NCBI GenBank assembly: GCA_031269245.1 | Contig: JAISZL010000069.1 | Coordinates: forward strand, 1-64,000 | DNA: 64,000 nt | Direction of reading: 5' to 3' | Source: Synergistaceae bacterium | Lineage (GTDB): Bacteria > Synergistota > Synergistia > Synergistales > Synergistaceae | In this document: positions 10,699 to 49,124 of the stretch, one piece after another | Layout: every line of letters begins with the position of its first letter | How positions within the stretch are numbered: position 1 is the first letter of the stretch | Program-made: the position numbers and the translations under genes | Notes under the pieces: model-generated | Databases searched by the model: none | Told to the model about the DNA's origin: nothing | What the model saw: only the letters and a program-made list of their open reading frames with translations

Positions 10699-11826
10699 TT
10701 ATGTCGATTTCTCGATGACGTTTTCGCGCGGGACTCCGTTCTCTCGAAACTTGTTCTCGACCTGCTCGAACACGTCGACCAGGACCGGGTCGAAGTGCGT
10801 TCCCCTGCCCTCCATTATTATCTGGGACGCCTGCTCGTGAGAGAAGGCCTTCTTGTACGGCCTGTCTGAGATCAGCGCGTCGTAGACGTCGGCTATCGCC
10901 ATGATCCTGCCCTGGAGGGGTATCTCCTCGCCGCGCAGGTTGTACGGATAGCCCGATCCGTCCCATTTCTCGTGGTGCGTCAGGGCGAAAATCCTCGAAT
11001 GAGTCAAAAAATCGTTGTTCGACATGTTCTCGCCTATCTTGTCGATTATTTTGGCGCCGAACACGGAATGGCGCTTCATCTCCTCGAACTCTTCGGACGT
11101 CAGCTTGCCGGGTTTTTTCAGGATGCTGTCGCTGATGGATATTTTGCCCACGTCGTGCAGCTGAGACGACTGCAGCATGAGATTTACGTCCCAGTCGGAG
11201 ATTTCCTCGCTGTAGAGGCCGAAATCCTGCAGCCCCTCCAGCATTATTCTGAGCCATTTGTTGGTGCGCTGCACGTGCCCGCCGGTGATCTCGTCCCTGC
11301 TTTCGACCACTTCGGCCAGGGTGTTCAATATCGCCCTCTGCAGTTCGAGCACGCTCCCGGTCTTCTCCTCGACCATGCGCTGCAGGTTATCGTTGAAGTT
11401 CTGCAGCTCGCGTTTCTGGTGCTCCATGGTCTTCCTCTGCAGCTCCATTGTCAGGTGGATTTCGACGCGCTTCCGCAGGATCGGCGGCTCGAACGGTTTC
11501 GATATGTAGTCGACCGCGCCGAGGTCCAAGCCCGTCACCTCGCTCTCGGGGTCGTTTCTGGCCGTGATGAATATCACTGGGATGTCTCGCGTCTTTTCGC
11601 CTTCCTTCAGTTTTTTCAGCGCCTCTATCCCATCCATCTCCGGCATGTTTATGTCCAGCAGTATCAGGGACGGAGCGTCGGTATCCAGCAGCGAGAACAT
11701 CTTTGCGGCCGAGGGTACGGTAAAGACGTCGTACTTTTCCGACAACACGGATTTGACGAATTTTAAATTCGTCAGGTTGTCGTCCACCACCATAATCCTG
11801 GTCCTGTTTGCTCCCATGACATTCAC
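10699..11826 (-). CDS. Response regulator with HD-GYP phosphodiesterase domain
   Basis: REC (MVVDDN, LILLDINMPEMDG) plus LHDVGKI and HHEKWDGSGYP. Confidence 0.94.
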   Translation of the reverse strand: MNVMGANRTRIMVVDDNLTNLKFVKSVLSEKYDVFTVPSAAKMFSLLDTDAPSLILLDINMPEMDGIEALKKLKEGEKTRDIPVIFITARNDPESEVTGLDLGAVDYISKPFEPPILRKRVEIHLTMELQRKTMEHQKRELQNFNDNLQRMVEEKTGSVLELQRAILNTLAEVVESRDEITGGHVQRTNKWLRIMLEGLQDFGLYSEEISDWDVNLMLQSSQLHDVGKISISDSILKKPGKLTSEEFEEMKRHSVFGAKIIDKIGENMSNNDFLTHSRIFALTHHEKWDGSGYPYNLRGEEIPLQGRIMAIADVYDALISDRPYKKAFSHEQASQIIMEGRGTHFDPVLVDVFEQVENKFRENGVPRENVIEKST

Positions 11827-47774: not shown

Positions 47775-47976
47775 CCCAAAACGCGACAATTCGTTCAAAT
47801 GTTGCATATAAGCGGACTGCCTCAAGCGGCAATGCGGAAAGAGATGGAAGTTGATCTGATGGGATAATCGGACGTTGAACGTTATGGGACATCACTCGCC
47901 CTATTCACAACACCAAGTGTTTATGCTATATTGCGTGACACAAACGCAACATTTGAACGAATTGTCGCGTTTTGGG
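47775..47976. repeat. Perfect 31-bp inverted repeat pair enclosing 140 bp (candidate invertible segment)
   Basis: CCCAAAACGCGACAATTCGTTCAAATGTTGC (47775-47805) and its exact reverse complement (47946-47976). Confidence 0.97.
47904..47932 (+). promoter_or_regulatory. Putative sigma70 promoter inside the inverted-repeat segment
   Basis: TTCACA - 17 bp - TATATT, directed toward the FkbM gene. Confidence 0.5.
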
Positions 47977-48087
47977 CGAGCGTTGAATAACGAAAGGAAC
48001 GCCCTTTATTATCGCTAAAGCGGACAAACTGATGGCGGCTGTTTTGTATAACATTTTTCGGGGATGCGGACAGGGGGAACTATTATT

Positions 48088-49047
48088 ATGGCGGAGGGTA
48101 GGTTTTATAGGGGATTGAGCAGAATGATTTGGTATATCAATGTGTTGCTTGTCTCAATTATCGCAAAACTATTCGGCAGGGAACCGTATGTCAGTTGGAG
48201 TGCTCTTTTCAGGTATAACATTCACTTTGCTAAACTTAGGTATTTTAAAGTGCTCAAGTTTTTGAAAATAATAGAAGAGATCCCTTATGAAGAGATACCT
48301 CATGAGGTAGTAGACCACGACGAATCAGTTAAGCTCATTAAAATAGCGGACTATAAAATATATTGGCCTAAATCATTTCCCCATGGACCTGTAATCACTG
48401 CCTATGAATCAGTATCGCATAATAAAGCGGATAATTATTTTCGGTTTTATTCACCTCGGGAAGATGATATTGTATTTGACTTAGGGGCTTGCGAGGGGTT
48501 TTTCTCGCTGTATCTCAGAAATAAGGTGAAGAAAGTATACGCTTTCGAGCCTTTCCCGGAACTATGCGGCGCGCTGTCCTTGACATTAGCGGAGGATATT
48601 CGGCGAGGCGCTGCGGAGGTCTGCAACTATGCGGTTGGCAATAGTGAAGGTATGGTTGATTTTTTTGTTGATGTTGACCTTGATGGTTCTACGTTTGAAG
48701 TATCCAAGATGTGCAAGGCAGTACTGAAAAAGATTTCCGTTCCAGAGACCACATTGGACCACTTCGTGTCGGATCGTGGGATTGATCGGGTATCCATGAT
48801 CAAAATGGATATTGAGGGCGCGGAATATTCGGCGCTGGAAGGCGCGAGGGGAGTCATTAAAGAATTTAAGCCGGATTTTCTTGTTTCAGCTTACCATTAT
48901 CCGCGTGACTATGATCGGCTGTCTAGATTTCTCGTAAATTCCGGGTATGATATTTGCCGCGGTCCGATAACTATGACTGCTCAGAATAACCAAAGACGTC
49001 CTTGGTATAGATATGCGCTGATTTATGCCGCATTGAAAAGTAGATGA
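48088..49047 (+). CDS. FkbM family methyltransferase
   Basis: DDIVFDLGACEGFFSLYLRNKVKKVYAFEPFPE, VSMIKMDIEGAEYSALEGA; visibly AT-rich relative to neighbours. Confidence 0.9.
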   Translation: MAEGRFYRGLSRMIWYINVLLVSIIAKLFGREPYVSWSALFRYNIHFAKLRYFKVLKFLKIIEEIPYEEIPHEVVDHDESVKLIKIADYKIYWPKSFPHGPVITAYESVSHNKADNYFRFYSPREDDIVFDLGACEGFFSLYLRNKVKKVYAFEPFPELCGALSLTLAEDIRRGAAEVCNYAVGNSEGMVDFFVDVDLDGSTFEVSKMCKAVLKKISVPETTLDHFVSDRGIDRVSMIKMDIEGAEYSALEGARGVIKEFKPDFLVSAYHYPRDYDRLSRFLVNSGYDICRGPITMTAQNNQRRPWYRYALIYAALKSR

Positions 49048-49078: not shown

Positions 49079-49124
49079 CGGGGGTGGGGGGGAATCGTTC
49101 CATCCCCCCACCCCCGGTTTTACG
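49079..49124. terminator. G/C-run hairpin between convergent genes
   Basis: CGGGGGTGGGGGG...CCCCCCACCCCCGGTTTT. Confidence 0.75.

Follow-up and report, generated by a model that had tools for sequence, protein, structure and literature searches.

A probable promoter-carrying inversion element upstream of an FkbM methyltransferase gene and its tyrosine recombinase-encoding relatives in Synergistaceae

Within a 64,000-nt stretch of a Synergistaceae genome (hereafter, the window), a gene encoding an FkbM-family methyltransferase (Pfam PF05050, E-value 1.2e-20), that is, a sugar- or surface-modifying gene, is preceded by two inverted repeats with a promoter-like sequence between them. The frame of this gene permits an earlier ATG at 48064, its GC content is 43% compared to 60% for the window, and the region of 47.5-49.1 kb is low in GC. 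Right after the gene (49079-49116), CGGGGGTGGGGGG/CCCCCCACCCCCG form a perfect inverted repeat of 13 bp around a 12-nt loop, possibly a terminator. The locus comprises the following features:

47775..47976, no strand assigned: whole element lacking a recombinase, 202 bp, predicted invertible segment
47775..47805, plus strand: putative left recombination-site arm, with CCCAAAAC-side extension (exact repeat; half-sites and core compared in relatives), subdivided into outer half GCGACAAT, element-specific core TCGTTCA and inner half AATGTTGC
47844..47860, plus strand: putative remnant of a tyrosine recombinase gene start, ATGGAAGTTGATCTGAT, encoding MEVDL.., the remainder deleted (from the sequence and the alignment with the copy on contig C19; intact genes start MEV.PIR)
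47904..47932, plus strand: predicted outward promoter, TTCACA-N17-TATATT, with an extended -10 TG; 13 nt from the end of the -10 box to the right arm
47946..47976, minus strand: putative right arm, the exact reverse complement of the left arm, next to the promoter
48088..49047, plus strand: FkbM-family methyltransferase gene (Pfam PF05050, open reading frame), faced by the element promoter in its present, ON orientation

The first-pass annotation of this DNA described a perfect 31-bp inverted repeat (CCCAAAACGCGACAATTCGTTCAAATGTTGC at 47775-47805, with its exact reverse complement beginning after a gap of 140 nt, at 47946-47976) as well as a promoter facing FkbM, and both are present as claimed, the latter with TG before the -10 box. 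Across the whole window, the arm sequence matches only these two positions, even with up to 3 mismatches, and shuffled sequences are expected to contain none. Inverted repeats of about 10-40 nt around a short segment, with a promoter inside facing a neighboring gene, are the features of an inverton, and by sequence the window copy possesses both. Promoter-like sites as such are no rarer than chance in the stretch (4 found, 2.7 expected), so the weight of this promoter rests on its conservation in relatives. It had also been suggested that the arms are an inverted partial duplication of old coding sequence; we discarded this possibility because the peptide common to both arms follows from the identity of the arms.

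The genome of the bacterium (G000; 2.34 Mb in 98 contigs, a fragmented assembly) contains dispersed relatives of the window element. A search for invertases and further arm copies, as the annotation had proposed, yielded one recombinase of the right family and, by similarity to the window copy, elements on C80, C19, C89, C7 and C10+C41 (two contig ends with a 53-nt overlap, joined by inference), along with a partial element on C73 and a lone site on C83. The half-sites are common to these relatives, and a promoter similar to TTCACA-N17-TATATT is found near the right arm wherever the right end is present. The exact site pattern gave zero matches in the collections of genome contigs and viral contigs that were searched.

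Several of these loci bear traces of rearrangement. At G000:C89:14121-14472 (L032), a composite element carries a second copy of the promoter-end arm outside the diverged original left arm; the outer pair of arms is identical and the orphan inner arm has drifted. At G000:C19:915-1260 (L031), a mirrored piece of the left flank, together with an additional half-site, comes directly after the right arm. The lone site at G000:C83:19795-19828 is a near-perfect palindrome in which two outer half-sites are joined; it may be an empty site or an excision scar.

Full-length versions of the element, about 740-950 bp long, were identified in congeners and other Synergistaceae, where they enclose a gene for a 187-aa tyrosine recombinase consisting of the catalytic domain only; in G001:C193 and G001:C328, from the same genus as the window, inverted sites surround such a 187-aa protein with a Phage_integrase domain alone. 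Across the gene start, the sister copy on C19 can be aligned with the full element G001:C328 (score 89, maximum of shuffles 46), and the right half of the window copy aligns with the promoter end of the full element (53 vs 42 for shuffles). The left half alone scores 39, the same as the shuffles, and is linked to the family through C19 and C80. The window copy retains the left end, the initial 17 nt of the recombinase gene and the promoter end. One part of the alternative considered in the first-pass annotation, namely, that the locus is a relic of a MITE or an insertion sequence, is borne out: the window copy derives by deletion from a dispersed element and is non-autonomous, with terminal inverted repeats. 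Like MITEs, it is short, has inverted ends and represents an internally deleted form of a larger coding element; the difference is that these ends resemble recombination sites with element-specific cores and that no transposase or target duplication was identified (inspection by eye revealed no obvious direct duplication beside the arms).

Homologues of the recombinase are encoded in 64 of the 188 genomes of the phylum (E≤1e-20), and the named matches are Synergistaceae MAGs, which, judging by isolate names, we guess to come from termite guts. Inverted sites bracket most of the homologues with at least about 60% identity, with scores of 16-41 (a range that omits G113, where the match extends into flanking genes that are paralogous) against a maximum of 14 for shuffled flanks. 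No inverted sites were found around G000:C26, G003:C103, G005:C189, which has little downstream sequence, and some others, or around most of the more distant homologues outside Synergistaceae, with the exceptions of L228, L261 and L270. The alignment of the recombinases retains the R, HxxR, H and Y residues of tyrosine recombinases; these residues, the PF00589 domain in the full-element recombinases and in the C26 protein, and the adjoining sites point to a tyrosine recombinase of the invertase type. NCBIfam models of tyrosine-type DNA invertases match the two tested proteins below the cut-off (E-values 8e-15 and 2e-15), and the FimB/FimE-type models were not reached (best 57.0 bits vs a cut-off of 222 for NF007371 and 38.1 vs 221 for NF007370). 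Divergence of the recombinases does not correlate significantly with that of the half-sites (Mantel r 0.145, p 0.13). One recombinase, L214, 59% identical to the family, comes from a MAG labelled Puniceicoccales, which could reflect horizontal transfer or a binning error.

The arms themselves carry a distinctive pattern of variation. Site-specific recombinases require that the variable core of a site be identical to that of its partner. In the window's own genome, elements differ from one another at 0.33 of 8 positions in the half-sites and 2.53 of 7 in the cores; the 6 elements have 6 different cores with zero mismatch within an element, an outcome given by only 1 of the 720 possible pairings. 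Across 19 elements, the core of about 7 nt differs between elements at 3.15 of 7 positions on average, and the left and right arms of the same element mismatch at 1 of 133 core positions, 16 of 152 in the outer halves and 3 of 154 in the inner halves, counts that come from arms aligned by hand with half and core boundaries of our own division and that are lowered in the congeners, where elements were partly chosen for matching arms. In every element, the cores of the two arms are inverted, never direct, repeats. By sequence comparison, the arms resemble recombinase sites in the geometry required for inversion, and the matching of the cores suggests that inversion has occurred in the past.

The same data bear on two explanations that dispense with inversion. 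Under the first, which we regard as unlikely, the element resembles an insertion sequence or MITE that excises as a circle, at the junction of which the promoter would normally drive recombinase expression; the window copy would be an insertion that became fixed and provided FkbM with a promoter by chance. The scatter of copies over unrelated loci, the internal-deletion derivatives and the lone outer-outer site at G000:C83:19800, which resembles an empty site, are compatible with this scheme, as is the excess of arm-to-arm differences in the outer halves over the cores, as if the outer halves were host-derived; however, inverted cores are the geometry of inversion rather than excision, and terminal repeats of the ordinary kind should stay conserved among copies, not vary in step from one copy to the next. 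The second, in which no recombinase is involved and the arms stay identical through template-switching during replication (quasipalindrome correction) or serve as a pair of operators for a repressor or as an RNA hairpin, we consider highly improbable. Each arm is indeed an imperfect dyad and would form part of the 5' untranslated RNA, but the arms match perfectly at a separation of more than 700 bp in G001:C193, the full elements enclose a recombinase gene, and a repressor has no need of a matched variable core. The fold of the leader RNA is no better than that of shuffled sequences (z -0.85), and a role as an attenuator or another RNA structure was rejected.

Returning to the inversion element, the promoter lies at one end only. 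Of the 15 full elements, 13 carry the motif TGnTAnnnT within the 55 nt that precede the right arm (12 of them at 5-15 nt and one at 37), and none carries it at the left arm (expectation from mononucleotide shuffles, 1.27). Because the motif was picked after inspection of these ends, the count itself weighs less than the contrast with the left end. The orientation with respect to genes, assessed from open reading frames of at least 100 aa rather than with a gene caller, differs between the two kinds of copies. All 15 full elements have a gene start facing their left end, the one without the promoter, and the neighbor on the promoter side presents its end in 8 cases, its start in 4 and is absent in 3; in the recombinase-less copies of the window's genome, the promoter faces a gene start in 6 of 6, all in the ON orientation. 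The neighbors of the elements include genes for histidine kinases, an HD-domain response regulator, a FecR-domain protein, a solute-binding protein and an amidohydrolase. One response-regulator gene, present at both G000:C7 and G006:C154 (76% identical), is accompanied by elements in opposite orientations, which may represent independent insertions because the DNA between the arm and the gene start is dissimilar. A homologue of the G000:C7 gene (65% identical) is also encoded in the window at 10726-11817 on the minus strand. FkbM has only two, distant relatives in the family (33 and 39% identity), hence no orthologous locus for comparison of orientations.

In G113:C23 (L170), two paralogous genes (60% identical) in inverted orientation flank a full element, and each of them starts at it; their open reading frames, cut by the ends of the stretch, span 805 and 979 aa and have prepilin-like N-termini. 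Given that both genes start at the element, flipping would swap which of them is transcribed, making this element a candidate either-or expression switch.

Taken together, these observations make it likely, in our assessment, that the repeats in the window serve as tyrosine-recombinase sites for a small inversion element with a promoter inside, of which the window copy is a recombinase-stripped version. At the level of the family, the sequence evidence supports the invertible-promoter reading well, and the bacterium can probably switch neighboring genes on or off by flipping the element. The architecture proposed in the first-pass annotation stands and is extended by site-like arms with matched, element-specific cores, by the recombinase in full relatives and by the outward promoter at one end; for the window copy itself, inversion is a prediction. 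In the full-length form, the segment between the sites would contain the recombinase gene followed by the outward promoter, and recombination at the identical core of the two inverted sites would flip the segment, turning the promoter toward or away from the neighboring gene. The window copy would have lost nearly all of the recombinase gene, keeping both sites and the promoter, which now faces FkbM. Because the gene is lost, flipping of this copy would have to occur in trans. The annotation had likewise noted that no recombinase is visible in the window and that one acting in trans would be needed; no recombinase gene adjoins the repeats, and the most likely candidate is encoded at G000:C26:66974-67534, an intact standalone gene for a 187-aa recombinase without flanking sites. 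Its product is 86% identical to that of G001:C193, the sites of which have the same GCGACA half-sites, and it could act in trans on the window sites.

A refinement compatible with the inversion-element reading is that the window copy is a relic in which loss of the recombinase froze the promoter toward FkbM, with no flipping at present, and we give this version somewhat less than an even chance. The ON orientation of all six derivatives, set beside the gene starts on the other side of all 15 recombinase-bearing copies, is in its favor, although six ON copies fit locked promoters as well as switching ones. Against it, the window arms are identical across all 31 bp, even in a core and a GTTGC half-site change that are private to this copy, which suggests recent recombination, and the related recombinase on C26 is intact.

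Each component of this system has known counterparts. The Hin flagellar switch of Salmonella, the invertible segment of which carries an outward promoter inside, resembles the full elements in having inverted sites around a recombinase gene and promoter; Hin, however, belongs to the serine recombinases and is confined to one fixed locus, in contrast to a tyrosine recombinase with many dispersed elements, differing cores and recombinase-less derivatives. The location of the hin gene within its invertible segment is described in PMC5903667; by comparison, the window copy has lost from its segment the gene that full relatives retain and is not self-contained in the manner of Hin. Like the window copy, the fim switch of E. 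coli is a promoter-only invertible segment served by small tyrosine recombinases (FimB/FimE), but it occupies a single locus, and its recombinase genes lie outside the segment, whereas the full-length copies here have the gene inside. In Bacteroides fragilis, Mpi acts in trans on many scattered invertible promoters (PMC5903667), and one recombinase acting in trans could similarly serve many promoters here; Mpi, though, is a serine recombinase, and the scattered sites described here derive from a recombinase-coding element. Closest in scale to the full elements is an 844-bp invertible segment near fimbriae in Providencia stuartii that encloses a recombinase open reading frame; it is reported as one locus, and the passage on it describes no dispersed family (PMC5903667). 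Inverton groups have been linked to groups of tyrosine-type recombinases, and horizontal transfer has been suggested for the spread of one group (PMC11892184).

In a limited literature search, we found no paper on invertible promoters in Synergistetes or Synergistaceae; the component parts are already known, and a dispersed tyrosine-recombinase family with stripped derivatives was not found in that search. Inversion alone leaves the dispersal of the inverted-site elements unexplained. Tentatively, we propose that these are self-spreading phase switches, that is, small tyrosine-recombinase elements that may land before genes, bring a promoter, impose flip control and then shed the recombinase, leaving either locked-ON promoters or a set controlled in trans by one remaining recombinase. 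Invertible promoters have mostly been studied one locus at a time. Here, many loci allow comparison of one recombinase family together with its sites, its full elements and the derivatives stripped of the gene, so that the spread of phase variation to new genes, and its fate after the loss of the recombinase, become testable.
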